Shown here piece by piece: positions 7,248 to 36,610 of a DNA stretch of 64,000 nucleotides. The notes beneath the pieces were generated by a model, which saw only the letters and a list, made by a program, of their open reading frames with translations, did no database searches and was not told where the DNA came from. Numbering within the stretch: the first letter of the stretch is position 1; each line of letters starts with the position of its first letter. Both the position numbers and the translations under genes were made by a program. The DNA comes from Paraburkholderia sp. (lineage in GTDB: Bacteria > Pseudomonadota > Gammaproteobacteria > Burkholderiales > Burkholderiaceae). The stretch lies in the NCBI GenBank assembly GCA_004322045.1, contig SCRN01000033.1, forward strand, positions 1-64,000, read 5' to 3'.

Positions 7248-7252
7248 TCCGG

Positions 7253-20422: not shown

Positions 20423-20728
20423 TCACTTCGATTCGCTGGTCCGCGCGGCACCCTTTTCCGGCGCATCGTCCTTGCCCACGGCCCGGCGAATCGCATGTTT
20501 GGTGGCGTCGTATCCGGTGCGTGCGCCGCTGGCGATGGCATGGCCGGCGGCCTTCGCCGTGCTCGCGACGCCGTGCGCCGCTTCACGCGCCCCTTCGCCG
20601 ACTTTCTTGCCGGCGGTCTTGATGTCTTGTTTTGCTTCGTGCGCGGTTTCCTTGACGCCGGCATGAGCGGCGGGAGTCAGCACCGTGCAAATCAACGCTG
20701 CTGCCAGCAAGCGACGGGTATGCTTCAT
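20423..20728 (-). CDS. Small exported Ala/Lys-rich protein at the end of the polyene operon
   Basis: This 101-residue protein has a clear Sec signal peptide (hydrophobic 8-20, cleavage after AHA at about 23). The mature region is low in complexity and amphipathic: KETAHEAKQDIKTAGKKVGEGAREAAHGVASTAKAAGHAI, with an 11-residue-like periodicity reminiscent of LEA-type proteins. It should be periplasmic. It begins only 12 bp after the dehydratase stop and has AAGGAG just before ATG, so it may be co-transcribed with the aryl-polyene operon. Its link to the pigment is positional only. Confidence 0.75.
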   Translation of the reverse strand: MKHTRRLLAAALICTVLTPAAHAGVKETAHEAKQDIKTAGKKVGEGAREAAHGVASTAKAAGHAIASGARTGYDATKHAIRRAVGKDDAPEKGAARTSESK

Positions 20729-20740
20729 CGACTTCTCCTT

Positions 20741-21244
20741 TTATAGGTCGTTGGATGGGGTGGCGGCTGCCGCGTGCGTGTCGGCGTCGAGGATGACGGC
20801 GGCTCGCCCTTCGAGCAGCACGGATTCGCCGCAGCGCACAGTGAAGCGGTAAAGGACCGTGTTGGCGTCGCCGCCGATACGTTGCGCGCTGATGGCAAGC
20901 GGTGCGTCGAACGTGTCGAGCCGGTCGACATAGGTTTGCACGCTGCGCACGCTTGCGAGCAAGCCCGCGCGCGGGCGGCCCGACGCCGCGCCTAGCACCG
21001 CGCCATGCACGGCCATCGCTTGAGCCGCATACTCCACGCCGCAAACGGCGCCGAGCCGGCCGTTCAAGCGCAGCGGGTTGTGCGCGTCGCGGTGCGTCGT
21101 TGCACTGCATTCAATCGTTTCGTCGTCCCAGCGCACGACTTCGTCGAGCAGACACATTGCATCGCTGTGAGGGATGTGCGCCGCAATCCAATCGTGATTG
21201 AACGGCGGTTCGAGCGGATGTGCGAGCGAAGGCGTCGTAGTCAT
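20741..21244 (-). CDS. Hotdog-fold 3-hydroxyacyl-ACP dehydratase of the aryl-polyene cluster
   Basis: This 167-residue FabA/FabZ-like hotdog protein matches the ApeP-type dehydratases: HIPHSDAMCLLDEV near the N-terminus (catalytic His region), RLGAVCGVEYAAQAMAVHGA as the central helix, and VQTYVDRLDTFDAPLAISAQ. It removes water from 3-hydroxyacyl-ACP intermediates to create the conjugated double bonds. Its ATG overlaps the stop of the chain-length factor gene (ATGA), so translation is coupled. A second dehydratase domain exists on the ligase gene, so the cluster has two, as in known APE clusters. Confidence 0.88.
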   Translation of the reverse strand: MTTTPSLAHPLEPPFNHDWIAAHIPHSDAMCLLDEVVRWDDETIECSATTHRDAHNPLRLNGRLGAVCGVEYAAQAMAVHGAVLGAASGRPRAGLLASVRSVQTYVDRLDTFDAPLAISAQRIGGDANTVLYRFTVRCGESVLLEGRAAVILDADTHAAAATPSNDL

Positions 21245-22065
21245 AGCGGGGCAGGTTGCGTGCGTGCGCTCATGGGCGTGATGTCGATCCGCATACGCAG
21301 ATCGTCGAGATAGTCGAGCACGACGGTCGCGGCTTGTCGCGCGGCCACGGCCTCGAGCAACGGCAACGCCCGGGCCGCCGGATTGTCGAGCCGCAGCATC
21401 TCGAGCGGCGGCGATGCAAGCGTCGTGGCCTGCGCATCGGTCAGTTGCGCGTCGATGCGGGCGAGCGTGCGCGCGCTCGCGCTCGGCGCGAGCACGAGCG
21501 CGACGCCGAACGCATCGCGGGTAGGGCGCACGGCGCTCAGTGGGGGCGGATACTCGGTATCGGCTGCGATCAGCAGCACGTCGTGTGCATCGACGGCGAC
21601 CTGGCAAAGGCTTTCGAGCAATCCGGCGGCGAAGCTGCCGTCGTGCGCGCATAGCACGTTCGATGCGGGCATCGCGCGCACGGCGATGCTCCAGTAGCCG
21701 GCGGGCGCGTTATGCACCGAGTTGTGGAAACGGGTGGGCGAGATGTAGCGATCGTCTCCCGCCAGCATTTCGCAGATCGCGTGGCAGTTCTGACCGTCGG
21801 CGCCCGACGAAGCAAAAACGCTGCAAAGCTGCGCCGGATCGCGTTCGGCCGCTTGTGCGGCTTCGCTGCCCACTGCCAGCGTCAGCTTGACCGGTACGCT
21901 CGTGCGGCGGCGCTCGGCCGCCGGCAGAGAGGCCGGCGGCGGAATGACGGCGGGCGCATGCACGTACCCGGCCGCACCGGTCAAGACTTGCGCGGCGTGC
22001 GGCCAATTGGCGAGCCCCGGGCCGATGAGCCCGATGCCGTCGAGATAGGCGTGCAGGTTCGTCAT
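21241..22065 (-). CDS. Beta-ketoacyl synthase chain-length factor
   Basis: This 274-residue protein is a partial ketosynthase-like fold of the PF13723 type. Readable blocks are VFASSGADGQNCHAICEML, PTRFHNSVHNAPAGYWSIA and CAHDGSFAAGLLE, where the active-site Cys of real ketosynthases is absent (HDGS). Such proteins dimerise with the ketosynthase and set chain length in aryl-polyene and type II polyketide systems. It overlaps the ketosynthase gene upstream and the dehydratase gene downstream by 4 bp each, which ties the three together as one elongation module. Confidence 0.88.
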   Translation of the reverse strand: MTNLHAYLDGIGLIGPGLANWPHAAQVLTGAAGYVHAPAVIPPPASLPAAERRRTSVPVKLTLAVGSEAAQAAERDPAQLCSVFASSGADGQNCHAICEMLAGDDRYISPTRFHNSVHNAPAGYWSIAVRAMPASNVLCAHDGSFAAGLLESLCQVAVDAHDVLLIAADTEYPPPLSAVRPTRDAFGVALVLAPSASARTLARIDAQLTDAQATTLASPPLEMLRLDNPAARALPLLEAVAARQAATVVLDYLDDLRMRIDITPMSARTQPAPL

Positions 22066-23297
22066 CGTTCGCCGCTCCTTTCATGGATGAGATCCGCGCG
22101 GCCAAACACCAGGCTGCAGTTGGTGCCGCCGAAGCCGAACGAGTTGCTGAGGACCGAACGCAGCGGCGCGTCGCGACTTTCGAGAACATAGCGAAGATTC
22201 AACGCCGGATCGGGCGTTTGGGTGCCGACGCCCGCAGGCATGAATTGGTGTCGCAGCGCGAGGGCGCAGATCACCGCCTCGAGTGCGCCCGCGGCGCCGA
22301 GCGTATGGCCCGTCGCGCCTTTGGTCGAGTTGCACGGCGTGCCGTCGAATAATGCATTGACGGCGAGGCTCTCCGCCGCATCGTTGCCCGGCGTCGCCGT
22401 CCCGTGCAAATTGATGTAGTCGATGTCGGACGCAAGCAGGCCGGCGCCGGCCAGCGCGCCTTCGATCGCCAGGCGCGCACCCAGTCCTTCGGGATGAGGG
22501 CTCGACATGTGGTGCGCATCGTTGGACTCGCCGATGCCGAGCAGCATGATGGCATCGCCGTGCGCACCGGGCGCAACGCCGCGGGTTGGCTGCGGGCGCT
22601 CGAGCAATGCGAATGCGGCCGCTTCGCCGATGGAGATGCCGCGGCGTTCGATGTCGAATGGCCGGCACGGCTCGCGCGAGAGCAACTCCAGCGAGTTGAA
22701 GCCGTAGAGCGTCGTCAGGCAAAGCGAATCGACTCCCCCCACGACGGCCGCGTCGATCAATCCTGCTTCGATCATGCGCCGCGCCGAGCCAAACACCTTC
22801 GCCCCCGACGAGCATGCCGACGAAATCGACACGGCGGGTCCTCGCAGCGCGCAGTAGGCACGCACGAAGGCGGCGAGCGCGTAGCAGTTGTGCGTTTGCG
22901 CATAGTGAAAGTCCGCGGGCAACGCCCCGCTCTGGGCATCGCGCCGGCGGTAGGCCTGTTCGGTTTCGAGGATGCCCGAAGTGCTCGTGCCGACGAAGAC
23001 GCCAACGCGCGTCGCGCCGTAGCGTGCCCTCGCCGCGACGACGGCCTCGGCGAATCCGTCTTGCGCGAGCCCAAGCTGTGCGAGCCGGTGATTGCGGCAG
23101 TCGAATTCGCGCAGATCGGCGCGCACGGGCTCGTCGTCGACGCCGTCGACCGCACCGGTCCATGTGGGGAGATCGGCGCGCTCGAAACGGCACGGCGCAA
23201 GGCCGCTGCGCTGCGCGCGCAACGCCTGCAAGGTTGGGGCGAGGCCACGCCCGATACAGCTCGTCGCAGTGAAGTGGGTGAGGTGCAGAGGGTTCAC
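22062..23297 (-). CDS. Beta-ketoacyl-ACP synthase of the aryl-polyene cluster
   Basis: This 411-residue FabF-type ketosynthase has the full active site: Cys162 in SSACSSG, His298 in NLHGTATPGND, and Lys326 with His331 in STKGATGHTLG, then NSFGFGGTN near the end. It condenses malonyl-ACP with the growing aryl-polyenoyl chain. The start is a GTG at 23297 without a strong ribosome site. It is followed at 4-bp overlap by its chain-length factor, forming the KS-CLF pair that is the signature of aryl-polyene clusters. Only one complete ketosynthase is present in the cluster. Confidence 0.93.
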   Translation of the reverse strand: MNPLHLTHFTATSCIGRGLAPTLQALRAQRSGLAPCRFERADLPTWTGAVDGVDDEPVRADLREFDCRNHRLAQLGLAQDGFAEAVVAARARYGATRVGVFVGTSTSGILETEQAYRRRDAQSGALPADFHYAQTHNCYALAAFVRAYCALRGPAVSISSACSSGAKVFGSARRMIEAGLIDAAVVGGVDSLCLTTLYGFNSLELLSREPCRPFDIERRGISIGEAAAFALLERPQPTRGVAPGAHGDAIMLLGIGESNDAHHMSSPHPEGLGARLAIEGALAGAGLLASDIDYINLHGTATPGNDAAESLAVNALFDGTPCNSTKGATGHTLGAAGALEAVICALALRHQFMPAGVGTQTPDPALNLRYVLESRDAPLRSVLSNSFGFGGTNCSLVFGRADLIHERSGER

Positions 23298-23315
23298 GGC
23301 AGTCGATCCATTGAC

Positions 23316-24218
23316 CTATTCATTGACTTCGAACGATACGGACGCGGCGCGCGTTGCGGCGGCCAGCGGCAGTGTAGCCGTGCTCGCCAGCGCCGCGCGC
23401 AACGTGATGCATGGCAGCGCAGCGTCGCGCGCGGCGCGCAAAACGATCTCGAGCGCATCGATGACGACGGGGCGGCCTCGCTCGTCGCGTGCGGCATGAC
23501 CGTCGTGCAACAGCAGAATGTCGCGCGCCGCGAGGCCGTGCAGCAACCGCTTTGCGACGAGCGCTGCGTCGGGCGTGCGCGTGTCGAAGCCGCGCCGCGT
23601 CCAACTGGCGAGTTGCAGGCCGAGTGCGCATAGAACCGGATCGAGAAACGGATTGCGCAGTCCGGCCGGGGCGCGAAAGAACAACGGCGCGATGCCGCTC
23701 GCATCGTGTAGCGTGCGCTGCGCGGCCTCGATCTCGCGCCGCAATGCGTGCGGGCCTTGCAGCGAAAAATAATGACGATGATGCTGGCTGTGATTTTCCA
23801 CGGCATGGCCGCGCGCGGCGATCGCTTCGACGATGCGCGGATGACGCCGCGCCATTTCACCGATGCAAAAGAACGTGGCTTGCGCCGCATAGCGGTCGAG
23901 CAGATCCAAGACGCGGGGCGTCACCTCGGGATCGGGGCCGTCGTCGATCGTGATCGCGATCCGAGCACCCGCTTGCGCGGGTAATTGCGTCCAATTCGGA
24001 CCGAGCAGCGAACTGCGCGGCCAGAGCCCGGCGGCGGTCAACACGGCATGGGATGCCGCGACTGCGCCGACTGCATAGGGCCAGGCAGACGGTTGCGCGA
24101 CGGCTAACCCCGCGGCTGCGGCGTGCAACGCGACCGTGCCCGCAACCACCGGCGTCGGGCGCCAAGGACGGGGAGCGCCGGCAAGCGGCGAGGCGGGCGG
24201 GCGCGGTGTGGGGCTCAT
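23316..24218 (-). CDS. Polysaccharide deacetylase (NodB-like) in the aryl-polyene operon
   Basis: This 300-residue protein has two hydrophobic N-terminal segments (about 24-42 and 46-64) and a NodB domain. The domain carries the metal/catalytic motif IDDGPD (91-96), the metal-binding NHSQHH (His143, His147), FRAPAGLRNP and LLLHDGH. It is a carbohydrate esterase family 4 enzyme that removes N- or O-acetyl groups at the membrane face. Its gene overlaps the exporter gene by 4 bp and precedes the ketosynthase by 18 bp, so it belongs to the operon. It could trim the sugar added by the GT2 enzyme of the cluster; that is inference. Confidence 0.88.
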   Translation of the reverse strand: MSPTPRPPASPLAGAPRPWRPTPVVAGTVALHAAAAGLAVAQPSAWPYAVGAVAASHAVLTAAGLWPRSSLLGPNWTQLPAQAGARIAITIDDGPDPEVTPRVLDLLDRYAAQATFFCIGEMARRHPRIVEAIAARGHAVENHSQHHRHYFSLQGPHALRREIEAAQRTLHDASGIAPLFFRAPAGLRNPFLDPVLCALGLQLASWTRRGFDTRTPDAALVAKRLLHGLAARDILLLHDGHAARDERGRPVVIDALEIVLRAARDAALPCITLRAALASTATLPLAAATRAASVSFEVNE

Positions 24219-26791
24219 GCGGTTTTTCCTTTGCGTTGAGCGGCCGTGAATGTGCTGCAGCCGGTCGCTTGCGGCGCGCGCGGCGCCAGGATTGCCGAGA
24301 ACAACAGCGCGAGCATGGCGCCCGGCCCGACCGTCAGGCCGAACGATTCGAGCATGGGCACACGAGAGAAGGCAAGCAGCCCGAAGCCGGCGACGGTCGC
24401 GAGATTGGCCACCAAGAGCGACACGAGTGTTTGCGGCGCGATGCCCGGCGGGGACGCTGACGAGCCGGATGGCGGCGCCGCGTTGCGCTGGTTGAAATAG
24501 AGCGCGTAGTTCGAGCCGATTGCGACGATGAGCAGCAGGCCAATCAAATGAAGGATCGTGAGCGGCTCGTGCGCGAGCGCAAAGCCCGCGGTCACCGTCA
24601 GCACGGCAGCCATCAGCGGCGCGAGCGTGCCGGCGACGCGGCCGGCGTCGCGCAACGCGGCGAAGAGCAGCGCGACGATGGCTGCCAGCCCCGCGAGCGA
24701 CAAGCGAATGTCCTCGCGCACGTAGTCGACGTAAAGCGTATCGGCCTCTCGTTTCAGATCGACGAAGAGCGCGTCCGGAACGCGGGCGCTAGCGACGGCC
24801 GCTTCGACGCGCTTTGCGTCCAGATCCGGTTCGTCGACGGCGGCGCCTTGCGATGGCGCCGGATGCGCGTTCGGCGTCGTCGTCGTTCGTGCCGCGGTTG
24901 CTGTCGCGGCCGATGCTGCGTTTGGGGCGCGTAGCGAGAGCATGGCTTGCCAGCGGCCAGAGCGTTCGGTCAGCAAGGCGCCCACTGCCAGCCCCATCGA
25001 CGTTCCTCGCAGGTCGGCGCGGCGCAGCAGCGGCGCGTTGCGCGCTTGCTCGACGTCCGCGATGAATGGGGCGAAGACGGCCGGTTTCACCTCGATCGCT
25101 TGATCGGCCACCGCCGAGCGCATTCTCGCCTCGAGCACGCTCGCGGGCGGCAAGCTCGCGAGCCGCGCGCGCTGCGTGGCTTCGCTCGGCAGAAAGCGCG
25201 AGGGGCTGTCGAACCCGGCCAGAGCGCCGGCATCGACGAGCGGCTGCAGCCGGGCGGCGATTTTCTCCGCGCCTTCGAGCACCGCTTGCTCGCTCGTTCC
25301 CGACACCACGACCAAGTAGCGCACGTCTGGGGCGCCCACGTCGGCGCGCAGCGCGGCATCGAGCGCCTGACTTGAAGCGGGCACGGGGCTCAGCGCGGAA
25401 AGTTCATGGCTCCAGAGTTGACCGCGGTGCAACGCGAGCGCGGTCACGGCGCCGAACATGAGCGCCGCGAACGGCCAGCGCAGGCGCGGTGCGGCGCGGG
25501 CGGCATCCGCGAGCCTGGCGCCTAGCCGGGAAAGATCGCGCACCGCGATCGCGCGGCGATGCAGATGGGGTAGGACATAACGCGTGACCGCGGCAGCCGC
25601 GACGAGTCCCGCGATCGAGTAGACGCCCAGTTGCACGAGCCCGGGAAAGCCCGAAAACAGCATCGATGCGAAGCCGCACACCGATGTCAGCATGCCGAGC
25701 CTGATCGTCGGCCAGTAGGCGGCGATCCAGGCATGGAGCGAAGCGCGCGCGTCTGTGCCGGCGCCAGGGCGTGCCGATTGCACGAACAAATAGATCGAGT
25801 AATCCACGGCTTCGCCGATGAGCGTCGTGCCGAACCCAAGCGTAAGTCCGTGAACCGTACCGAATACGAGGGTCACGAGCGCAAGGCCCGCAGCGACGCC
25901 CGACAAGACGGGCACGAGCCCGAGCGCGAGCGTGCGTGGCGAGCGATAGACGAGCAAGAGCAAGCCGACGACGAGCGCGAGACTGAGTGCGGAAAGACGT
26001 TCCACGTCATGCTTGATCGTGTCGCGCGTCTGCACCGAAAACACGCCCGGCCCGGTGAGCACGAGCCGGCACGACGAGGCGTGCGCCGTGCGGGCGGCCG
26101 CCGAGCTGAAGGCGGCGCGTACTGTGGCGATCGCGCTTTCCTGGGCATCGGTGTCGGAACCGGCGGCGGCCGTTTGCGCGACGAGCACGGCGCGAGAGCC
26201 ATCGCGCGAGACCCACACGCCATCCTTCGAGACCGGCTGAGCCTCGCCGGCGAACTGGTCGACGATGGCCGTCACTTCGCCCGTGGGATCGTGCGGCAGC
26301 AGCGCCTTCGTCATCAAACCGGCCGACGAAGCGAGCAGGTCGAGGCTTTCGCCGAGCGCGCGGTGCAGCCCGTCGGCCGAGAACCGTTGCGGCGTCACGG
26401 CAGGACTGAGCAAGTAGCGGTGATCGAAGACGAAGCGCTCGTCGCGCGCTTGAGTGACGCTCTCGCCGTTGTTCACGGAAACGAAGCGCGAATCTTGGCG
26501 CAGCGCGGCCGCCATGCTGCGCGATATGTCCGCGCGCGTGTTCGCATTGCCGCCTTCGATGCCCACGAGGATCAGGCGCGAGACGAAGCCATCGCGCAAT
26601 TGATCGACGAGCAGGCGTTGCCGCGCAGTGGGGGCGTGCGGCAGAAACGCCGAAAGGTCGGCGGTGAAATGGGCGCGCGAAATCACGAGCGCACAGCCGA
26701 TTAGAAACGACAGCCAAAGCAGCACCGCGCGCCGCGCCGGCAGGGCGCGAGCTGGGGCGGTGGACGGCTTGTGCTCGTCGCGCTTCATCAC
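24215..26791 (-). CDS. MMPL/RND-family exporter of the aryl-polyene cluster
   Basis: This 858-residue inner-membrane protein has the MMPL duplication: one N-terminal helix, a large periplasmic loop (about 50-255), a five-helix bundle (about 260-410), a second loop and a second bundle (about 700-845). The GFGTTLIGEAVDYSIYLFVQ block is the Asp-containing proton-relay helix of this family, and IVAIGSNYALYFNQ is its repeat. In APE and xanthomonadin clusters the protein is thought to move the lipid-linked pigment across the inner membrane. It overlaps both neighbours by 4 bp. The second loop carries an Ala/Thr-rich insert at about 625-655. Confidence 0.92.
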   Translation of the reverse strand: MMKRDEHKPSTAPARALPARRAVLLWLSFLIGCALVISRAHFTADLSAFLPHAPTARQRLLVDQLRDGFVSRLILVGIEGGNANTRADISRSMAAALRQDSRFVSVNNGESVTQARDERFVFDHRYLLSPAVTPQRFSADGLHRALGESLDLLASSAGLMTKALLPHDPTGEVTAIVDQFAGEAQPVSKDGVWVSRDGSRAVLVAQTAAAGSDTDAQESAIATVRAAFSSAAARTAHASSCRLVLTGPGVFSVQTRDTIKHDVERLSALSLALVVGLLLLVYRSPRTLALGLVPVLSGVAAGLALVTLVFGTVHGLTLGFGTTLIGEAVDYSIYLFVQSARPGAGTDARASLHAWIAAYWPTIRLGMLTSVCGFASMLFSGFPGLVQLGVYSIAGLVAAAAVTRYVLPHLHRRAIAVRDLSRLGARLADAARAAPRLRWPFAALMFGAVTALALHRGQLWSHELSALSPVPASSQALDAALRADVGAPDVRYLVVVSGTSEQAVLEGAEKIAARLQPLVDAGALAGFDSPSRFLPSEATQRARLASLPPASVLEARMRSAVADQAIEVKPAVFAPFIADVEQARNAPLLRRADLRGTSMGLAVGALLTERSGRWQAMLSLRAPNAASAATATAARTTTTPNAHPAPSQGAAVDEPDLDAKRVEAAVASARVPDALFVDLKREADTLYVDYVREDIRLSLAGLAAIVALLFAALRDAGRVAGTLAPLMAAVLTVTAGFALAHEPLTILHLIGLLLIVAIGSNYALYFNQRNAAPPSGSSASPPGIAPQTLVSLLVANLATVAGFGLLAFSRVPMLESFGLTVGPGAMLALLFSAILAPRAPQATGCSTFTAAQRKGKTA

Positions 26792-27444
26792 TGTCTAGCC
26801 GCGTCGCGCAACTGCATGACCGAATGGTCGCCATCGGCCTGCTCGATCACGACCGTATGCAACACGTCACGCGTGCCGTCGAGCGTGATCGTGCGCACGG
26901 CCTTGAGCATGCGCGCATCGAGCGGCGTTAGCGTGAGGGTCCAGTTCTCGCCCCGACCGTCGATCGACACGTGATAGAGCCGCTCGAGCGCATAGCGATT
27001 GCCAGCCAGTGTCGCGCGAATGCTGTCGATGAACGCTCCGATTTCCGGATAATGCGCGAGCGACATCGTGTACGTGCGCTGGTTGCGCTGCACCGTCAGC
27101 GTGTCGCCGTCGACCACGAGCCGTTCGGGCTTCGGGCTCACGGTGTCTTTTTCCAGATGATCGGGCGCGACGAAGGCCAGTTCGCCCGACGACTCGATCG
27201 GTTTCGCCGCGATCGACAGGTACTTCGTTTCCACGAACTTCGCATGCCCGGACTTGTTTTGCGCGAGCGTGGACATTAGCCGATCGAGCGTCCAGTCCGA
27301 GTTGCCGCCGGCCGCCGCCGTCGCCGTCTCGGTTGCCGCTGCGGCCGCTAGCGGCAGCGCCAAGCATAGGCTGACCAGCACGCGGGCCGTGAGCGCCCGG
27401 CGCGACCGAGATGTGCCGACGAGGGAAAGAAGCGATGCCGTCAT
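26788..27444 (-). CDS. LolA-like outer-membrane carrier protein
   Basis: This 218-residue periplasmic protein has a signal peptide (basic start, hydrophobic 24-37). A LolA-type beta-barrel fold follows, with MSTLAQNKSGHAKFVETKYLSIAAKPIESSGELAFVAPDHLEKDT and later RTITLDGTRDVLHTVVIEQADGD. This resembles the LolA-like protein of APE clusters, which is presumed to ferry the lipidated pigment through the periplasm. The ATG at 27444 overlaps the stop of the acyltransferase gene (ATGA) and gives a proper signal peptide, while the frame extends upstream without one. It is distinct from the housekeeping LolA. Confidence 0.88.
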   Translation of the reverse strand: MTASLLSLVGTSRSRRALTARVLVSLCLALPLAAAAATETATAAAGGNSDWTLDRLMSTLAQNKSGHAKFVETKYLSIAAKPIESSGELAFVAPDHLEKDTVSPKPERLVVDGDTLTVQRNQRTYTMSLAHYPEIGAFIDSIRATLAGNRYALERLYHVSIDGRGENWTLTLTPLDARMLKAVRTITLDGTRDVLHTVVIEQADGDHSVMQLRDAARQ

Positions 27445-28427: not shown

Positions 28428-30190
28428 GGCGCCCGCCGCTCCGTCATCACACCGGCAGCCGCGATGCGCTCGCCTGCGCGAATCGTGAATCGAATCGTGC
28501 CGTTCTCCTCGCAGCGAAACGTCAGCGTGAGCGTCTCGCCGGGCGCAACCGGCGCGGTGAACTTCGCCGAACCGATAGCGCCGATATCGAGCGTGCGTCC
28601 CAAGGCCGTACCGATGTGCGCGATCGCGTGGTCGAGCAGCACGACGCCGGGAACGATCGGCCGGCCCGGAAAGTGCCCGGGCAGGGCGGGGTGGCCGGCC
28701 GCAATCGCGAATTGGATCGGCTCGTGCGCTGTATTGACCGGCTCCGGCTCGGATGCGCCGATGCGGCTCGCGCCCGCACTCGTGTTGCCCCGGCGCGCAA
28801 GCAAGGCTGCAACCAGCGCAGCGAGCGTGTCGTGCGGCAGCTTGCCGGTCGCGTTGCGCGGCAGTGCGTCGACGAACAGCAGCGGTCGCGGCATGAACGC
28901 GGCGTCGATGCGCTCGCGCAGGCTGCGTTGCATCTCGGCTGGCGTAAGCGCCGGCGCGACGACGAGCGCAACGAGCCGTTGGACAGCAGTTCGGTCTTGC
29001 ACGTCCGAGGTTTGCACCGCAACGTTCGAGGGGCCGTCGGCGGGCATGAAGAACACGCCGTCTTCGACGCCTGGAATCGCGGTCAGTTGATGGTTCAGGT
29101 AGGCGAGGGATGTGCGCTTTCCCGCGATATTGACGAGGTCTGCTTTGCGTCCATGCAACACAAAATGCCGCCCGTCGATGAGCTCTAGCGCATCGCTCAT
29201 TCGAACCGGCGCTTCGACGTGACCGCCGGCGGCCCAGATCTCCTCCTCATCGGCATCGTCCTGCGCAGGGCGGGCCGTCAACACGACGTCGGGGAACAGT
29301 TCCCATGCGGCGCCGTGCGCCGTACGGCGCGTGGCGATCTGGCCGGTTTCGGTGCTGCCGTAGATTTCCATCAGCGGTGCTTGCAGGCGGGTTTCTGCCT
29401 GCATTGCCAGTTTTTCGGAAAGCGGCGCCGTTGCGGACAGGATCAACGACGCGTGCGCCAGCTCAGGCTCGGACGACAGCAGTGCCCGCAGGTGAATCGG
29501 CGAGGTGACGAGAATGCGCGGCGCCGGCACGGCTTCGAGCGCGCGACGGATATCGCTCGGATAGAACGGTTGCGCGTTGCTGAAGGCGATCGCGCCGATC
29601 AATGCGAGCAAGACCGTCGATTCGAAGCCGTACATATGTTGCGGCGGCACCGTGCCGACGAGCGTGCTCGCGGCCGTCTCGGCTATGTCGAGGCGTGCCG
29701 CGGCGGCGCGCACGTTCTTCACGAGAAAGCCCCACGTTTTTCGATGCGGCACGGGCGTGCCGGTCGAGCCCGAGGTGAACACGTATGCCATCACGCGCTC
29801 GCCGTCGATCAGCGGCGCGGCTTCGTCGCTTGACGCGGTGTGCGCGGATGGACCTGGGAGCGCATAGCGAAAGCGGGGCAGTGCGATGTCGCAGTCGTCG
29901 GCATCGTGCAGGCAGAAGGCGTCGGGCGCGAAGCGGTGCAGCTCGCGCACGGTTTGCGGCGTATAGGTGGACGGCAACAAGCTCACCTTGCCGGCGACCA
30001 ACGTAGCGCACAAGCCGACCGCAAAGCGATATCGGTCCCGGCAGACGTTGAAGACGTGGCCGCCGCTGGGCAGCAGGGCCGCAAGGGCGCCGACATCCGC
30101 GAGAAACTCGCGCACCGTCACCGGCGCCCCGTCGCGCCAGGCGATGATGCGATCGGGCGAAGCATGAGAGACCAGCGGAAAACTCGGCAT
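28424..30190 (-). CDS. Acyl-AMP ligase fused to a hotdog dehydratase domain
   Basis: This 588-residue two-domain protein has residues 1 to about 470 as an ANL adenylating enzyme: P-loop YVFTSGSTGTPVPHRKTW, YGSTETGQIATR, GRKADLVNIAGKR and the C-terminal Lys in PRNATGKL. Residues from about 490 to 588 are a FabZ/ApeI-like dehydratase with HPALPGHFPGRPIVPGVVLL (His500 and the HFPG loop). The ligase probably activates hydroxybenzoate from the cluster's chorismatase and loads it on the ACP; the second domain dehydrates chain intermediates. In many APE clusters these are two separate genes. It lies 86 bp after the membrane-protein gene and overlaps the acyltransferase gene. Confidence 0.9.
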   Translation of the reverse strand: MPSFPLVSHASPDRIIAWRDGAPVTVREFLADVGALAALLPSGGHVFNVCRDRYRFAVGLCATLVAGKVSLLPSTYTPQTVRELHRFAPDAFCLHDADDCDIALPRFRYALPGPSAHTASSDEAAPLIDGERVMAYVFTSGSTGTPVPHRKTWGFLVKNVRAAAARLDIAETAASTLVGTVPPQHMYGFESTVLLALIGAIAFSNAQPFYPSDIRRALEAVPAPRILVTSPIHLRALLSSEPELAHASLILSATAPLSEKLAMQAETRLQAPLMEIYGSTETGQIATRRTAHGAAWELFPDVVLTARPAQDDADEEEIWAAGGHVEAPVRMSDALELIDGRHFVLHGRKADLVNIAGKRTSLAYLNHQLTAIPGVEDGVFFMPADGPSNVAVQTSDVQDRTAVQRLVALVVAPALTPAEMQRSLRERIDAAFMPRPLLFVDALPRNATGKLPHDTLAALVAALLARRGNTSAGASRIGASEPEPVNTAHEPIQFAIAAGHPALPGHFPGRPIVPGVVLLDHAIAHIGTALGRTLDIGAIGSAKFTAPVAPGETLTLTFRCEENGTIRFTIRAGERIAAAGVMTERRAP

Positions 30191-30276
30191 GACGTTGGCA
30201 GCAAGTTGACGAAATCGACTACGGGCGAGTGCGGCGCGCGAATCGGACCGATACGACCGTTATCGAAGATCGAAGG

Positions 30277-30936
30277 TTATCGAAACTGAACGGGCCGGGC
30301 TCCTGCCGAGCGCCGGTAGGCGCGTATGCTCGCGAGCATGCCGGAGCTTTCGATCCCGGGCAGCGCAAAGCGTCTGCAAGCATGTTCGCCCACGAACATG
30401 AGCGCGACGAGCGGCAGCGTCAGATAGTTGGCGAAGATCGACCATACCGAAAGCGAAGCCGTGGCGAACAGCACGGTGGAAACGGCGACGACGCCCCCGA
30501 AGAACAGCGTCCAAGCCACCGTGATGCGGCGCGTATAAGCGGCGATCGCCGGTGCGAGCGGTCTGCCCCGCACCATGGCGGCGAACTGGCTGCAAAGCGG
30601 CTCGCGGCCGGGCGCGAGGGTGCGGCCGAACAGATAACCCAGGGCGCCGTTGAACACGACGTGTTCGAAGAACAGTCCCCAGGCGTAGTGACGCACGAGC
30701 GCGCCGCGCGAGACCCACAGCATGGCGCACGCGGCGGCGATGAGCGGCACGAGCAACGCGCGCCGTGGGGAGCGCGCCGCGAGGCCCAGCGCGAGGACGG
30801 CCACAGGTGCTAGAACGAGCACAAGCCCTAGCCTTTCGAAGCCCCGCGTGGTCACGGCATGATGCGCCCCGACCTCATAGACGAGCACGAGCGCCGCGCC
30901 GGCGGCCTCGCGTGCAATCGAGCCGATACGATTCAC
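30277..30936 (-). CDS. COG4648 integral membrane protein, first gene of the minus operon
   Basis: This 219-residue protein has about six hydrophobic segments. Readable conserved blocks include FEHVVFNGALGYLFGRTLAPGREPLC and SVWSIFANYLTLPLVALMFVGEHACRR, as in the COG4648 proteins of aryl-polyene clusters. Its biochemical role is unknown; it is a reliable marker of these clusters. The GTG start at 30936 has GGGAGGGG directly upstream, whereas the open frame reaches a further 46 codons 5' without a ribosome site. Confidence 0.82.
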   Translation of the reverse strand: MNRIGSIAREAAGAALVLVYEVGAHHAVTTRGFERLGLVLVLAPVAVLALGLAARSPRRALLVPLIAAACAMLWVSRGALVRHYAWGLFFEHVVFNGALGYLFGRTLAPGREPLCSQFAAMVRGRPLAPAIAAYTRRITVAWTLFFGGVVAVSTVLFATASLSVWSIFANYLTLPLVALMFVGEHACRRFALPGIESSGMLASIRAYRRSAGARPVQFR

Positions 30937-31408
30937 TCGACCCCTCCCCGCGCAATACGCTGCTTTACGACACCCGAATGAAAGCGGGCGAAACCCAAAC
31001 CAATAAAAATCGACACCATTCGAACCATGACGACTACCGCCGACTGTCCCCCATTGCTGCGTTCGACGGATCATACGGAGTTCGCGTCGGCAAGGGGATG
31101 CGTTTTGTAACTTTTTATATAGTCGGGCTTGGACGCGCGGCGCGTCTTTCGCGGCGGCGCTCGCGCGCGAGCCAAGCGCGGCGCGTCTTCGGGCGCTGCG
31201 ACGCGCGGCCTGGCGGCTTGCCTGCGCGCTTCATTCAGTAACCTTTCTGGTATATACGTCAGTCAGGGGTTCGTCTAGAATCGCTCGGACTTGAACGGAC
31301 CCTATTTGCATGGCTGGAGTCGTGTGTCCCGGTTGGGCGACGAATTCCTCTCCTTGCTCGCGTCCACGCTATTCAGGCCGCAATTTTCGCAGTCAGCCTG
31401 CGGTAAGT
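30937..31408. promoter_or_regulatory. Divergent control region of the aryl-polyene cluster (472 bp)
   Basis: This gap separates the two divergent operons and must hold both promoters. On the minus side a T/A-rich element (TATATAAAAAG read on the minus strand, near 31109-31121) is a possible -10. On the plus side TAGAAT at 31276-31281 is a possible -10 for the ACP operon. No good -35 pairs with either. A very GC-rich stretch lies between (31133-31225). No regulator gene is adjacent, so control is probably by a remote regulator. Confidence 0.45.
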
Positions 31409-31672
31409 ATGATGAATGAACTGGAAAGAGAACTCGCCGAACTGATGATCCGCGAATTGAACCTCGAGGATATTCGGATCGCCGATGTATCGCCTGATAT
31501 GGTCCTTTACGGCGAAGGTTTCGGGCTCGATTCCATCGATATTCTCGAAATCGCGCTGCTGATCTCGAAGAAGTATGGGTTCGAGCTGCGCTCGGATAAC
31601 CCAGACAACAAAAGGATCTTCGCTACGCTCGGGGCGTTGGCCGCCTACGTGGCCGAACATCGCGTTCGATAA
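31409..31672 (+). CDS. Acyl carrier protein of the aryl-polyene cluster
   Basis: This 87-residue acidic helical-bundle protein has the phosphopantetheine site GLDSIDILE, Ser42 being the attachment residue. It carries the starter and growing polyene as thioesters. It is the first gene of the plus-strand operon, 3 bp before the ketoreductase gene. Two adjacent ATG codons (31409, 31412) are possible starts; the ribosome site is weak. Most APE clusters encode two ACPs, and I find only this one. Confidence 0.93.
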   Translation: MMNELERELAELMIRELNLEDIRIADVSPDMVLYGEGFGLDSIDILEIALLISKKYGFELRSDNPDNKRIFATLGALAAYVAEHRVR

Positions 31673-31675
31673 GCT

Positions 31676-32407
31676 ATGGCGCAAGTCCCGGTGAAAGCAT
31701 TGGTGACCGGCGGCAGCGGCGCGCTCGGCGGCGCGATCAGCCAAGCGCTTGCGGCGGCGGGCCATGAAGTCTACGTGCATGCGCATCGCAATCTGGCGGC
31801 CGCCGAAGCGGTCGTCTTGCGCATCGCCGATGCCGGCGGCGCGGCGCATGCCGTTTCGTTCGACGTGACGGACGAAGCGCAAGCGCGCAACGCGCTCGAG
31901 CGCATCGTCGAAGACGGCCCTGTGCAAGTGTTGGTCAACAACGCGGGCATCCACGACGACGCACCCATGGCCGGCATGTCGCAGCAGCAGTGGCGCAGCG
32001 TCATCGAGGTCACGCTGAACGGATTTTTCAACGTCACGCAGCCGTTGTTGTTGCCGATGATCCGCACGCGCTGGGGCCGCATCGTCAACATTGCCTCGGT
32101 CACGGCGTTGACGGGCAACCGCGGGCAGACGAACTACGGCGCGGCCAAAGCGGGGCTCATCGGGGCAACGAAGTCGCTCGCGCTCGAGTTGGCTTCGCGC
32201 GGCATCACCGTCAATGCGGTGGCCCCGGGCATCATCGAATCGCCAATGACCGCCGCCGCATTTCCGCCAGAGCGCATCAAGCAGATCGTGCCGGCGGGCC
32301 GCAGCGGGCGGGCCGAGGAGGTCGCCGCGATGGAGGCTTATCTGGTTTCCGACGCGGCGGCCTTCGTGACGGGACAGGTCATGTCCGTCAACGGCGGACA
32401 GGCTTAG
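31676..32407 (+). CDS. 3-oxoacyl-ACP reductase (FabG-like, SDR) of the aryl-polyene cluster
   Basis: This 243-residue classical SDR has GGSGALG at 12-18, NNAG at 88-91, Asn115, and the catalytic triad Ser141, Tyr154, Lys158 (YGAAK), with VAPGIIESPM and a C-terminal MSVNGG. The GALGGAI variant of the cofactor loop is typical of FabG-like reductases in APE clusters (ApeQ type). It reduces the 3-keto group after each condensation, using NADPH. It starts 3 bp after the ACP stop and is surely co-transcribed. Confidence 0.93.
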   Translation: MAQVPVKALVTGGSGALGGAISQALAAAGHEVYVHAHRNLAAAEAVVLRIADAGGAAHAVSFDVTDEAQARNALERIVEDGPVQVLVNNAGIHDDAPMAGMSQQQWRSVIEVTLNGFFNVTQPLLLPMIRTRWGRIVNIASVTALTGNRGQTNYGAAKAGLIGATKSLALELASRGITVNAVAPGIIESPMTAAAFPPERIKQIVPAGRSGRAEEVAAMEAYLVSDAAAFVTGQVMSVNGGQA

Positions 32408-32490
32408 CTGCGAGCGCCCATTCCAGTCTGCGGCGCAATCGCGACGATCCAAGCGCGTCATGTAGCAGCCCGGCTGCGAGGAGAAAAGCT

Positions 32491-33834
32491 GTGACGAATG
32501 AACTAGGCGAGGCCGAGGCGCCGAGCTGGGATGTCGTCGTGATCGGCGGCGGACCGGCCGGCTCGACGGTGGCGACGTTGCTCGCCGATGCCGGCCACCG
32601 CGTGCAGTTGCTCGAGAAGGCGCGCCACCCCCGCTTTCATATCGGCGAGTCGCTGTTGCCGGCGAACTTGCGGTTGTTCGAGCGGCTCGGTGTGGCGGAC
32701 GACGTGCGCGCGATCGGTATGTACAAGGGCGCGGCCGAATTCGTCTCGCCGCAGCATGGCAATCGGCTCGAGCGGTTTCGCTTCGCCGACGCCTGGGACA
32801 AATCGATCCCCTATGCCTATCAGGTGCGCCGCTCCGAACTCGACGAGATATTGCTGCGCAATGCGGCGCGGCACGGCGTCGATGTCGTCGAAGGGTGTCA
32901 GGTGCGCGATGTCGAATTCCTCGAAGCGGACGACGGCGCCATCGTGAGCGCGGCGCACGACGACGGACGGGCCTACCGCAGCCGCGCCCGGTTCGTCGTC
33001 GACGCGTCGGGCCGCGATACGCTGCTGGCCAATCGCCTCGGCACCAAACGGCACGACACGAAGCACAACAGCAGCGCGCTGTATGCGCACTTTCGCGGCG
33101 CGCAGCGCCATGGCGGAGCGGACGAAGGCAACATCAGCATCTACTGGTTCGAGCGCGGCTGGTTCTGGTTCATCCCGCTTGCCGACGGCGCGACGAGCGT
33201 CGGCGCCGTGGTCTGGCCGCATTATCTCAAGCAGCGGCAACGCGGCACCTCGATCGAGGCCTTCTTCCTCGAGACCATCGCACTGTGTCCGCCGCTCGCC
33301 GAGCGGCTTGCGAGCGCCGAACTCGTGACGAGCGTCGACGCCACCGGCAACTATTCATACACGGGCGAGATCACCCATGGACGCAACTTCGTGTTGCTAG
33401 GCGATGCATTCGCGTTCATCGATCCGGTGTTCTCCTCGGGCGTGATGCTCGCGATGCAAAGCGGGTTCATCGGTGCGCAAGCCGTCGACGTTTGCTTGCG
33501 CGAACCCGCTCGCGCGCAGGCCGCGCTCGCCAAGTTCGACCGTGACGTGCGTCACGGGCCAAAGACGTTCTCGTGGTTCATCTACCGGATGACCTCGCCG
33601 GCGATGCGCAGCCTTTTCATGCGGCCGCGCAACGTCTTTCGCGTGAGAGAAGCCGTGCTCTCGCTGCTGGCGGGCGACATCTTCGGCGATACGCCGATCT
33701 GGCTGTCGCTGCGCATGTTCAAGGTCATTTACTACTTATCGGCCGCGCTCGATGCGCGCAATTCGTTGCGGGCGTGGCAGGCGCGCCGCCGCATGCTGCG
33801 GCAAGCCGACGAGCCGAGGACGGCGGCAGGATGA
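32491..33834 (+). CDS. Flavin-dependent halogenase-like protein (tryptophan-halogenase family)
   Basis: This 447-residue FAD protein has the dinucleotide site IGGGPAGS (18-25), IGESLLP (50-56), and the halogenase signature WxWxIP as GWFWFIP (222-228). It has a Lys at 78 in MYKGA, where phenolic halogenases carry their catalytic Lys, and DPVFSSG near 312-318 for the chloride-flavin region. It may brominate or chlorinate the aryl head group, as xanthomonadins are brominated, or it may be an oxidoreductase of the same fold. GTG 32491 is chosen because GAGGAG lies at 32478-32483. It is followed after 7 bp by the chorismatase gene. Confidence 0.85.
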   Translation: MTNELGEAEAPSWDVVVIGGGPAGSTVATLLADAGHRVQLLEKARHPRFHIGESLLPANLRLFERLGVADDVRAIGMYKGAAEFVSPQHGNRLERFRFADAWDKSIPYAYQVRRSELDEILLRNAARHGVDVVEGCQVRDVEFLEADDGAIVSAAHDDGRAYRSRARFVVDASGRDTLLANRLGTKRHDTKHNSSALYAHFRGAQRHGGADEGNISIYWFERGWFWFIPLADGATSVGAVVWPHYLKQRQRGTSIEAFFLETIALCPPLAERLASAELVTSVDATGNYSYTGEITHGRNFVLLGDAFAFIDPVFSSGVMLAMQSGFIGAQAVDVCLREPARAQAALAKFDRDVRHGPKTFSWFIYRMTSPAMRSLFMRPRNVFRVREAVLSLLAGDIFGDTPIWLSLRMFKVIYYLSAALDARNSLRAWQARRRMLRQADEPRTAAG

Positions 33835-33841
33835 GGCGCGA

Positions 33842-35008
33842 ATGTCGGCTGCCACGCTGAAACTGATTCGGCTCGCACCTGCTGGCCTGGCGGCGCTCCT
33901 GGGCGATGAGCCCGCCGCCGCCCGGCACGAAGCGTTCGCACGCGCCTATCCGGGTGTGCTTGGCGCTGCATGCTTCGGCAACGCCGAGCGCTGGCCGCTT
34001 CTTGCCGAGGCGGCGCCCGAATTGCCGCTTGCGCCGGCATCGATGGCGCGGCTCGTTCGCGTGTCCGAACGTTCGGACCAGCTCGATGACGCCAGCTTCG
34101 AAATCTGGCAGTGCGATGCAACGGATCTGATAACCCGCACGCACGGGTCGCTGCGTTACCGATTCAGCGAATCGGCCGGCATCGTATTCGGCAGCGTGTC
34201 GATGCAAGAAGCCCAGGCCGGCAACGCGTCCGCCACCGGTGCGACGCCGCTCGAGAGGGTCACCTATGCGGCGTACGAATCGATCTTTCACGTGCTCGAT
34301 GCGCTTGGCATGCGGCACCCGTTGCGGATTTGGAATGTCGTGCCGGCGATCAACGCCGAGCAGTTCGGCAGCGAGCGCTATCTTCAATTCAACACGGGCC
34401 GTCAGCGTGCTTTTCAGGCGTTCGGGCGGCCCGTCGTCGATAGTGTGCCGGCCGCGAGTGCGCTCGGTGCGCCGGTGCCGATCGACGGCAACGCACCGAG
34501 TGCGACGCCGCTCGTCGTCTCGTTCCTCGCCATGCGTACGGCGTCCGAGGCGATAGAGAATCCGCGCCAAGTCAGCGCCTATCGTTATCCGGCCCAATAC
34601 GGTCCGAGCGCACCCACATTCGCGCGCGCCGCTGTGTGGCGCGACGTGCGCGGGCCGAGCCAGGCGCCAATGCTTTTTGTCTCGGGCACGGCAAGCATCG
34701 TCGGCCACGAAACGGTTCATTGCGGCGACGCGCCGGCGCAATTGCGCGAAACGCTCGCCAATTTCGATGCGATTCTCGGCGAAGCGGCCCGCAAGGGACA
34801 TGGCGAGTGGGCGCTATCGGACCTGACTTACAAGATCTACGTGCGCGACCCGTGCGACCTCGACCTGCTGGCCGCCATCGACGATACGCTGCGGGCGCGC
34901 TGCGGTTCGCCGTTGCGCGCGCTCTATCTGCATGCCGATATCTGCCGCAGCGACTTGCTGCTCGAAATCGAAGCGAGCGCCGGACATGGCGTGGAGGTGT
35001 GCGCATGA
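33842..35008 (+). CDS. Chorismatase (XanB2/FkbO/Hyg5 family) supplying the aryl starter
   Basis: This 388-residue protein matches the chorismate-hydrolysing chorismatases. It has RIWNVVPAINAEQ and ERYLQFNTGRQRAFQAFG in the middle, then MLFVSGTASIVGHETVHCGD, QLRETLANFDAIL and TYKIYVRDPCDLDLL. The family converts chorismate to 3-hydroxybenzoate (Hyg5, XanB2) or to a dihydrodiol (FkbO). In Xanthomonas XanB2 makes the hydroxybenzoates used for xanthomonadin. The presence here, and the absence of an aromatic ammonia-lyase, says the starter comes from chorismate. The stop overlaps the next gene's ATG (ATGA). Confidence 0.88.
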   Translation: MSAATLKLIRLAPAGLAALLGDEPAAARHEAFARAYPGVLGAACFGNAERWPLLAEAAPELPLAPASMARLVRVSERSDQLDDASFEIWQCDATDLITRTHGSLRYRFSESAGIVFGSVSMQEAQAGNASATGATPLERVTYAAYESIFHVLDALGMRHPLRIWNVVPAINAEQFGSERYLQFNTGRQRAFQAFGRPVVDSVPAASALGAPVPIDGNAPSATPLVVSFLAMRTASEAIENPRQVSAYRYPAQYGPSAPTFARAAVWRDVRGPSQAPMLFVSGTASIVGHETVHCGDAPAQLRETLANFDAILGEAARKGHGEWALSDLTYKIYVRDPCDLDLLAAIDDTLRARCGSPLRALYLHADICRSDLLLEIEASAGHGVEVCA

Positions 35009-35817
35009 GCGATGTGAGCGTACGCGCGGCGCAGCGCTTCGGGGCCGGCTCTATTCGGCGCGCCTTCGAGGGGCTGCGTCAGCACGTCGTGTTCTATTTC
35101 GCGTTGCTCGTGCTCGCGATCGTCTGTTTGGCGTGGCTGCCCTGCGCGGCCGTGTTGTACGCGCTGTTGCCGCGCGCCGCCGCGCGCGTGCTCGGACGCG
35201 CCGTGATTCGCCATGTCTGGCGGCTGTACTTTCAAGCGCTCACGGCGCTCGGCGTTGCGCGCTTCGACTTGAGCGAGCTGGCGGCGCTGCGGGGCGCGCC
35301 GCCAATGATTCTCGCGCCCAATCACCCGACGCTGCTCGACGCCATGCTCGTTGCTTCCAGCGTGCCGAACGTATGCTGCGTCATGAAGCGCGAGATCGTC
35401 GGCAACGTGTTTCTGGGGGCGGGCGCACGACTCGCGGATTACATCGCGAACGATGCGCCGAAGGCCATGATCAAGACCGCGGTCGCCGACTTGCGGCGCG
35501 GCCATCCGTTGCTGCTGTTTCCGGAGGGCACGCGCACGGCATCGATGCCGGTCAATCCGCTGAAGGCGGGGGTCGGGCTCATCGCCGCGCGCGCGGGCGT
35601 TCCCGTGCAGACGCTGATCGTCGAAGCGGGCTCGCCGTTTTTGGCGAAGGGCTGGTCCATACTACGCAAACCCGCGCTGCCGCTTACCTATCGCGTGCGG
35701 CTGGGGCGCCGGTTCGCGCCGCCGCAGCGGCACCCCGACGCGCTGCGAGCCTTCGTCCTACAGTTGCAGAATCACTACTGCGCGGAACTCGCGAATGGAC
35801 CGTCATCGCGCGGCTAG
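35005..35817 (+). CDS. PlsC-type 1-acyl-glycerol-3-phosphate acyltransferase-like protein
   Basis: This 270-residue membrane-associated acyltransferase has a strong N-terminal hydrophobic region (about 28-56). It carries the PlsC motif NHPTLLD (His107-x4-Asp112), then KREIVGN, LLFPEGTRT and a VPVQTLIVEA block. Xanthomonadin and APE clusters carry such an enzyme, thought to join the polyene acid to a glycerol- or sugar-lipid. It is translationally coupled to the chorismatase gene (4-bp overlap), and a glycosyltransferase gene follows 16 bp later. Confidence 0.9.
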   Translation: MSDVSVRAAQRFGAGSIRRAFEGLRQHVVFYFALLVLAIVCLAWLPCAAVLYALLPRAAARVLGRAVIRHVWRLYFQALTALGVARFDLSELAALRGAPPMILAPNHPTLLDAMLVASSVPNVCCVMKREIVGNVFLGAGARLADYIANDAPKAMIKTAVADLRRGHPLLLFPEGTRTASMPVNPLKAGVGLIAARAGVPVQTLIVEAGSPFLAKGWSILRKPALPLTYRVRLGRRFAPPQRHPDALRAFVLQLQNHYCAELANGPSSRG

Positions 35818-35833
35818 CCGTCCCCGCACCACC

Positions 35834-36610
35834 ATGCCGATGCCCACAGCCTCGACCACCCATCTCGTCCTCATCCCCAGCTACAACCCGGGAGAGAAGC
35901 TCGACGACACCGTGCGCCGCGCGCGCGCTCAATGGACGCCCGTTTGGGTCGTCGTGGACGGCAGCACGGACGGCAGCGCCGAGCGGCTCCAAGAGATGGC
36001 GAAAAACGATCGGGGGTTGCGCGTCATCGTTTTGCCGCGCAACCGCGGCAAGGGCGCAGCCGTGCTCGCGGGGCTGAACGAAGCGGCGGCGTGCGGTTTC
36101 ACGCATGTCTTGACGATGGATTCCGACGGTCAACATCCTGCCGAGCTGATCGGGGCGTTCATGGCCGCGTCGATGTCGCTGCCGCAGTGCATGGTGCTCG
36201 GCCGCCCGAAGTTCGACCGTAGCGCGCCGCGCATCCGCGTGCTGGGACGGCAATTGTCGAACTTCTGGGCGCATGTCGAGACGCTGTGGGCCGGAGTGGG
36301 CGATTCGCTGTACGGTTTCCGCGTTTATCCGATCGCGCCGCTACGCGCGTTGATGACGAAGCAGCCTTGGATGCGGCGTTTCGATTTCGATCCCGAGGCC
36401 GCCGTCCGTCTGTGCTGGCGCGGCGTCGAGCCCATCAACCTCGATGCGCCGGTGCGGTATTTCAAGCGCGAAGAGGGTGGCGTCTCGCACTTCCACTACG
36501 GTCGCGACAACCTCGTGCTCAGTTGGATGCACTTGCGGCTGCTGCTGGCGTTCATCCTGAGGCTGCCGCTACTCATCGCGCGCCGCTTGTCGCAGCTTGC
36601 CGACCGGTAG
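35834..36610 (+). CDS. Family 2 glycosyltransferase of the aryl-polyene cluster
   Basis: This 258-residue GT-A enzyme has LIPSYNPGEKLDDTV at the N-terminus, VVVDGSTDGS and the metal-binding TMDSDGQHP (DxD), a family 2 layout like dolichyl-phosphate-sugar synthases. The C-terminus is hydrophobic and basic (LLLAFILRLPLLIARR), suggesting membrane association. It probably adds a sugar to the polyene lipid. The ATG at 35834 is preferred; an in-frame ATG at 35795 would overlap the acyltransferase gene by 23 bp. It is the last clear gene of the plus-strand operon. Confidence 0.9.
   Translation: MPMPTASTTHLVLIPSYNPGEKLDDTVRRARAQWTPVWVVVDGSTDGSAERLQEMAKNDRGLRVIVLPRNRGKGAAVLAGLNEAAACGFTHVLTMDSDGQHPAELIGAFMAASMSLPQCMVLGRPKFDRSAPRIRVLGRQLSNFWAHVETLWAGVGDSLYGFRVYPIAPLRALMTKQPWMRRFDFDPEAAVRLCWRGVEPINLDAPVRYFKREEGGVSHFHYGRDNLVLSWMHLRLLLAFILRLPLLIARRLSQLADR

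Follow-up and report, generated by a model that had tools for sequence, protein, structure and literature searches.

A probable chorismatase-primed aryl-polyene cluster in a Trinickia genome and the uneven occurrence of its starter-forming and halogenase-like genes among relatives

Which aromatic acid starts an aryl-polyene assembly line, and is the gene that makes it a fixed part of the cluster? These questions are raised by a locus at positions 20423–36610 of a 64 000-nucleotide stretch of DNA (referred to throughout as the window; GenBank assembly GCA_004322045.1, contig SCRN01000033.1), where a chorismatase gene lies among the genes of an aryl-polyene (APE) pathway. The window belongs to contig C10 of a genome of 5.99 Mb which, although deposited as Paraburkholderia sp., is that of a Trinickia, with Trinickia sp. 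Y13 and T. dinghuensis as the nearest named relatives. The locus consists of two divergent operons running outward from a gap at about 30937–31411, and we regard it, with little doubt, as a xanthomonadin/arcuflavin-type APE cluster that is primed by its chorismatase. This reading draws on gene content, conserved residues, synteny and phylogeny, all of which were observed directly, as was the presence or absence of the cluster as a single block, and it agrees with what a preliminary description of this DNA had proposed.

The minus-strand operon comprises, in order of transcription, genes for a membrane protein, a ligase fused to an ApeI-like dehydratase, an LpxL-type acyltransferase, LolA, an MMPL exporter, a polysaccharide deacetylase, a ketosynthase (KS), a half chain-length factor (half-CLF), an ApeP-like dehydratase and a small secreted-type protein, while the plus-strand operon runs from the acyl carrier protein (ACP) through the ketoreductase (KR), a halogenase-like protein, the chorismatase and a PlsC-type acyltransferase to a GT2 glycosyltransferase (Table 1). 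Given the start codons chosen in the analysis, neighbouring genes overlap by 4 bases at six junctions. The preliminary description had placed two divergent operons with a complete APE toolkit here, and the genes that it named are present; its list needs amending in that the ligase and one dehydratase are a single polypeptide, and in that the deacetylase and the membrane protein at 30277–30936 also belong. The core of a xanthomonadin/arcuflavin-type cluster, i.e. a KS next to its half-CLF, a KR, a pair of hotdog dehydratases, an ACP and an aryl ligase, is therefore present, as is the chorismatase inside the cluster that marks this type. The KS Cys, His and His residues are conserved in 24/24, 21/21 and 20/20 aligned homologues, respectively, Ser41 of the ACP in 46/46, Tyr154 and Lys158 of the KR in 38/38, and Asp92, Asp93, His143 and His147 of the deacetylase in 33/33. 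Both dehydratase matches fall slightly under their Pfam cut-offs, yet the genes are syntenic with those of relatives. Gln155 of the half-CLF is Gln in 14 of 18 homologues, and its spacing to the conserved Ser is 39 residues as against 46 around Lysobacter Q166.

Table 1. Genes of the two divergent operons, by position in the window (ORF, open reading frame; E-values or bit scores follow family accessions)
Feature	Position	Strand	Basis
Small Ala-rich secreted-type protein, last minus-operon gene	20423..20728	-	ORF; no Pfam family; homologue at same end of related clusters L045, L051, L055, L136, L137
ApeP-like 3-hydroxyacyl-ACP dehydratase, 167 aa	20741..21244	-	PF22817, 0.00022, 21.3 bits (under cut-off of 27); syntenic homologues
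Half-CLF (ApeC / Lysobacter ORF16 type)	21241..22065	-	PF13723, 1.3e-23; adjoins KS as in PMC3691225 (available passages)
KS	22062..23297	-	PF00109/PF02801; NF006618 above cut-off; Cys162, His298, His331 conserved
Polysaccharide deacetylase family protein	23316..24218	-	PF01522, 9e-27; arcN is counterpart by annotation
MMPL exporter	24215..26788	-	PF03176, 2.2e-15
LolA-like carrier	26788..27444	-	PF19574, 1.8e-22
LpxL-type acyltransferase	27441..28427	-	PF03279, 6.5e-11
AMP ligase (aryl:ACP ligase) fused to ApeI-like dehydratase	28424..30190	-	PF00501, 4e-17, residues 11–288; PF22818, residues 502–564, 27.8 bits (cut-off 28.5)
Conserved membrane protein, first minus-operon gene	30277..30936	-	No Pfam match (scored as 30277–31074); syntenic in related clusters
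ACP	31412..31672	+	PF00550, 1.4e-05, above cut-off; Ser41 conserved
KR	31676..32407	+	PF00106, 3.8e-53; Tyr154 and Lys158 conserved
Flavin-dependent-halogenase-like protein, 447 aa	32491..33834	+	PF04820, 9.1e-35 (scored on longer ORF)
Chorismatase, 388 aa	33842..35008	+	PF21168 (FkbO_Hyg5-like_N), 4.2e-23 (scored on longer ORF 33752–35008)
PlsC-type acyltransferase	35005..35817	+	PF01553, 1.7e-14
GT2 glycosyltransferase	35840..36610	+	PF00535, 1.2e-18

From these genes we infer substrate, product, lipid anchor, halogenation and function as follows. The chorismatase would convert chorismate to 3-hydroxybenzoate (3-HBA), perhaps with some 4-hydroxybenzoate (4-HBA), and the ligase domain would load 3-HBA onto the ACP in an ATP-dependent reaction. 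Repeated cycles with malonyl units, carried out by the KS/half-CLF, KR and two dehydratases, would then build a conjugated polyene, and the halogenase-like flavoenzyme may act on its hydroxyaryl ring. The acyltransferases and GT2 are predicted to join the polyene acid to a sugar-containing lipid, a glycolipid anchor in which the deacetylase would free an amine; similar anchor-step roles have been proposed for the E. coli counterparts (PMC8253772; here and below, statements citing PMC articles refer to the passages of them that were available). The MMPL exporter and LolA would move the pigment, probably a yellow one, to the outer membrane, where it could protect against light and oxidants.

The solved structures related to the window chorismatase are the Hyg5-type entries 5ag3 and 5a3k and the FkbO entry 4bps; we take the first two to be Hyg5, the structure file naming a putative pteridine-dependent dioxygenase. 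(An ORF at 34932–36077, considered at first as the chorismatase, is in the wrong frame and has no Pfam match; the gene is that at 33842–35008.) An alignment of 79 rows shows Gly and Cys at the positions of Hyg5 Gly240 and Cys327 in 78 of them, the window included, and FkbO alone has Ala at both, so that the window enzyme does not share the residues of the CH-I (FkbO) class. The 5a3k entry has Ser at the Cys column. We presume that Gly231 and Cys318 of Nat-hyg5 correspond to Gly240 and Cys327 (an offset of 9), and the same constant offset places Nat-hyg5 Gly164 at the Gly173 column. Gly164, Gly231 and Cys318 are named as marks of the CH-II, 3-HBA-forming, chorismatases (PMC7170507), and the window has Ala, Gly and Cys at these columns, the first as located by the constant offset, and hence falls outside CH-II (Hyg5) as so defined. 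The Gly173 column holds Ala in 65 rows (including the window), Gly in 12 and Val in two; the Gly rows are Hyg5, FkbO, a Streptomyces row, six unlinked genes (L057–L061 and L106), L049, L074 and L097. Since L049 and L074 are cluster-linked family rows, the column gives no clean split between linked and unlinked genes (L097 is a class row whose linkage was not inspected).

In a chorismatase tree of 63 rows and 239 columns, from which 16 near-alike Burkholderia-type rows had been dropped, the window falls, apart from FkbO, in a clade of its own class that comprises 54 rows and has support 100. Thirty-five of these rows are linked to APE cluster genes, six are not linked in the stretch read and 13 were not looked at. 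Five Caballeronia-type rows form a clade of their own (support 100) that joins Hyg5, a join that carries no support value owing to the rooting, and the unlinked gene of one genome (G204, L059) lies just outside the 54-row clade. Against the FkbO/Hyg5 model TIGR04444 the window enzyme scores 171.9 bits, under the cut-off of 325, which is passed by two Caballeronia-type enzymes (397 and 408 bits) and one Streptomyces enzyme. Because it is outside FkbO, below the FkbO/Hyg5 cut-off and cluster-linked, the window chorismatase is best read as a XanB2/ArcB-like 3-HBA former, which suggests the CH-III type that yields both 3-HBA and 4-HBA; the XanB2-family assignment of the preliminary description is upheld to this extent, the placement being indirect, by exclusion and linkage and not by direct comparison. 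UbiC is present in 11/11 Trinickia genomes, and a requirement of the chorismatase for ubiquinone is therefore ruled out. A plasmid search for close chorismatases returned nine records, every one of less than 60 % identity.

How constant is the chorismatase among relatives? Searches scored no more than the four to six top first-look candidates of each genome, so misses are possible. A chorismatase match was found in 74 of 398 family genomes and a GT2 match (E ≤0.001) in 353; cluster presence was taken as a close GT2 (E ≤4.6e-112) in the best 150 of these 353, the cluster itself being read only in selected stretches. In those 150 genomes the chorismatase is linked (within 5 kb) in 48 and elsewhere in 20, is a remnant in one and was not found in 81, so that the assembly line evidently also works with a different starter. 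The short remnant (L062 1943–2206, genome G302) immediately precedes GT2 in its Burkholderia-like cluster and points to loss of the chorismatase. Replacement of the local chorismatase by an ammonia-lyase in Burkholderiaceae clusters was considered and rejected, for, genus group g10 aside, the GT2 of the loci read follows the KR or ACP within about 0.5 kb, leaving no room. At six loci (L046, L047, L051, L054, L071 and L072) the ACP is directly followed by GT2, with no KR or chorismatase match in the stretch read.

An unlinked chorismatase goes with the close GT2 in genus group g10, which we take to be Caballeronia because a named Caballeronia plasmid gene falls inside that clade (g12 is likewise equated with Burkholderia, its arrangement being found again in B. 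guangdongensis). Within g10 such a gene occurs in 19 of the 20 close-GT2 genomes as against two of the 36 other listed ones, one of these two (G214) having a partial GT2 (Fisher 9e-12, uncorrected for kinship and leaving out g10 genomes among 25 unlisted). The unlinked state is plain in few-contig assemblies, the two loci being on different contigs in G243 (C3 vs C2) and G336 (C4 vs C6). The three g10 clusters that were read have the order KR–halogenase–gap–PlsC–GT2 with no chorismatase match, and in G061 the gap between halogenase and PlsC holds a MipA gene. Azoarcus has the order halogenase–chorismatase–MipA–acyltransferase–glycosyltransferase (PMC3949708), and a Steroidobacteraceae metagenome-assembled genome has chorismatase–MipA–GT2; from these orders it is likely that g10 lost the chorismatase from an older gene order. 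Stand-alone Hyg5-type chorismatases, with LysR-type genes and a DMT transporter as neighbours, were seen away from the cluster in Caballeronia-like genomes (L057 9541–10539 and L106 7722–8696). On a tree of 36 clusters (four of 40 were dropped for missing genes, and two long branches meet), linkage of the chorismatase changes at least seven times and presence of the halogenase four times. At class level, a sample of 369 genomes gave a chorismatase match in 72. Of the 71 genomes besides that of the window, 20 were inspected, at loci from other families, and 14 have the chorismatase with at least three further cluster genes in a stretch of no more than 20 kb; the other six (L115, L119–L122 and L126) lack three such genes, L119 being a short contig.

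Flavin-dependent halogenases are marked by GxGxxG, a catalytic lysine, WxWxIP and DPVFSSG, and these were checked in the window protein, which the preliminary description had called halogenase-like. In addition to its PF04820 match, Lys79, the WFWFIP positions of the WxWxIP motif, and the D, P, S and G checked in DPVFSSG are invariant in 24/24 homologues, Gly19 and Gly21 of GxGxxG are conserved in 22/22, and Lys79 aligns with a lysine of 3e1t and CmlS. A close halogenase (at least 58 % identity; search at E 1e-60) was found in 32 of the 398 family genomes, with only weaker matches in 12 more; of the 29 halogenase genomes that have a listed GT2, 26 have the two genes no more than 6 kb apart. 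Some chorismatase is encoded in 31 of the 32, the exception being G061, and 43 family genomes have a chorismatase without a close halogenase (Fisher 1e-24 for co-occurrence, uncorrected for kinship). Compared over the cluster tree, halogenase and linked chorismatase give four independent pairs, three in the same direction, which are too few for significance; with so few independent halogenase changes, a coupling of the two genes is suggestive only.

Whether the pigment is halogenated by this protein is about an even bet. The strongest rival, to which we give slightly less than an even chance, is that it is a flavin monooxygenase or an idle relic and that the pigment carries no halogen. None of the best 25 of 75 matched NCBIfam families reaches its cut-off, and the solved neighbours include 3nix, named a flavoprotein/dehydrogenase; yet the invariant lysine and motifs argue for a halogenase, and the five best solved relatives, 3e1t (6.6e-62), 8zop, CmlS (3i3l), ChlB4 (7fco) and PltA (5dbj), are named halogenases, ChlB4 or alkylhalidase. 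Among described systems, Xanthomonas, which makes brominated pigments, has a halogenase gene and the non-brominating Lysobacter is without one (PMC3691225), while Azoarcus has the arcA halogenase and yet a pigment ion of m/z 608.4 for which the available text mentions no halogen (PMC3949708).

This last observation is one of several that weigh against a chorismatase-primed, halogenated product. The Ala at the Gly173 column leaves the window enzyme without one of the three residues named for 3-HBA-forming CH-II chorismatases, neither XanB2 nor ArcB is represented in the chorismatase tree, the product of such chorismatases is not predictable from alignment alone (PMC3949708), and there are the 81 close-GT2 genomes in which no chorismatase was found. 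These 81, along with the UbiC of every Trinickia genome, also speak for a second rival, in which the same pathway starts mainly from 4-HBA, supplied by UbiC or the chorismatase, to give an E. coli-like para-hydroxyphenyl polyene; ArcB produced both 3- and 4-HBA in E. coli (PMC3949708), and the E. coli APE pathway is predicted to begin with 4-HBA (PMC8253772). The operon chorismatase would then contribute little, however, and a close halogenase is nearly always accompanied by some chorismatase; moreover, mutation of the Lysobacter chorismatase gene cut the pigment by about 90 %, and 3-HBA brought it back (PMC3691225), and we consider a mainly 4-HBA starter improbable for the window. Slightly less probable still is an arcuflavin-type hybrid, a polyene acid esterified to a dialkylresorcinol, for although both gene sets occur in Azoarcus and Variovorax (PMC3949708), the cluster genes include no evident dar-like gene, the remaining genome not having been searched for any.

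The chorismatase-primed reading can be extended, tentatively and as a possibility that we would put below an even chance, to the family as a whole. The starter step of Burkholderiaceae APE clusters may be an exchangeable cassette: an in-operon XanB2-like chorismatase in Trinickia and most Burkholderia-like cluster genomes, a Hyg5-type enzyme elsewhere in the genome in Caballeronia-like ones, or none, with 4-HBA provided by UbiC. The halogenase would be tied functionally to the 3-HBA ring and kept only where some chorismatase is encoded, whether near or distant, and the cell would make two polyenes, a halogenated meta-hydroxyphenyl polyene lipid from the window and another one primed by a lyase. 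No aromatic amino acid lyase is among the Pfam matches of the scanned cluster genes, so the cluster is not of the ammonia-lyase-primed kind; the earlier statement that no such lyase is present holds for these genes but not for the genome, since a second APE locus (genome G000, contig C53, locus L037 1559–16370) encodes an aromatic amino acid lyase of 571 residues (PF00221, 4.3e-158) as well as a ligase–dehydratase fusion of its own, its genes being 24–49 % identical to their window counterparts. Near-identical assembly lines with an adjacent chorismatase, a distant one or none found are a ready natural comparison, which makes the choice of head group, and the need of the halogenase for a 3-HBA ring, directly testable in Trinickia and Caballeronia.

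The cluster is one block that is present or absent between fixed flanks, and gain, loss or relocation are all possible. The inserted block spans about 20407..36641 (about 16.2 kb), and its ends coincide with those of the cluster at 20423 and 36610. To the left is a chemotaxis-type gene (18853–20406) and to the right a spermidine-synthase-like gene (start at about 36630; no Pfam match), both named from reading the sequence; the two adjoin without the cluster in four relatives (G114, G097, G122 and G088), while G044, G025, G106 and G068 are uninformative on the empty site, the left gene being absent from the stretch read. In Trinickia sp. Y13 and T. dinghuensis the right flank of the cluster is that of the window, and G088 and G068 have it at another place with one flanking gene in common. 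Judged by the ligase (at least 73 % identity), the cluster is present in five of 11 Trinickia genomes; APE clusters, of a type not stated in the available text, have been recorded in 11/11 Trinickia species (PMC8506256). No convincing target-site duplication or inverted repeat was found at the block ends, the longest word in common being 11 bases. The G+C content is 0.63–0.69 within the cluster against 0.55–0.59 in the leftmost 16 kb. In that low-G+C part, positions 2508–14001 (0.55–0.59) encode a GST-like protein, a LysR regulator, a RuBisCO-like protein (5970–7247), a DUF1537-type kinase (7154–8662), a pyruvate kinase and a TRAP transporter, apparently a set for sugar-acid catabolism that includes the RuBisCO-like protein. 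A BenE-type benzoate membrane transport protein is encoded at 42824–44044, about 6 kb from the cluster and outside the inserted block.

The closest described system is that of the arcuflavin (arc) loci of Azoarcus sp. BH72, which resemble the window in having halogenase, chorismatase, acyltransferase and glycosyltransferase as neighbours, and in their KS, half-KS, dehydratases, KR, deacetylase, exporter, LolA, acyltransferase, ligase and ACP, but differ in being split over two places, in a MipA gene (arcC) that the window lacks, in ligase and dehydratase listed as separate genes, and in a dialkylresorcinol partner locus (PMC3949708). The preliminary description had likened the gene content and order to those of Xanthomonas; in gene content the resemblance to arc is at least as strong, the Xanthomonas locus not having been compared gene by gene. 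The yellow-pigment locus of Lysobacter enzymogenes and the xan/pig locus of Xanthomonas share with the window a 3-HBA-forming XanB2/ORF5, KS and half-CLF, ACP, KR, two dehydratases and a LolA-type carrier, Xanthomonas sharing the halogenase as well and Lysobacter not, the comparison being one of gene content (PMC3691225). The E. coli CFT073 cluster follows the same type II APE logic, with an extra ketosynthase-type ApeC, ApeP and ApeI dehydratases, an RND-type exporter and a LolA-like protein, but has a predicted 4-HBA start, two ACPs and a methyltransferase, and no chorismatase in its available gene list (PMC8253772). Within the Burkholderiaceae, the pig-like cluster of Ralstonia solanacearum, which includes acpP2, is a relative of the Xanthomonas cluster reported, in the available text, without a xanB2 homologue (PMC9542644), and by analogy the chorismatase-less family clusters may be of this sort. 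The open-licence literature searched, chiefly through listings and abstracts, yielded nothing on cassette-like behaviour of the chorismatase, on its counterpart outside the cluster or on halogenase nesting. The pathway type itself is already known, betaproteobacteria included, and Variovorax is on record as a Burkholderiales carrier (PMC3949708); what is new is how often the starter-making and halogenating genes differ among relatives.

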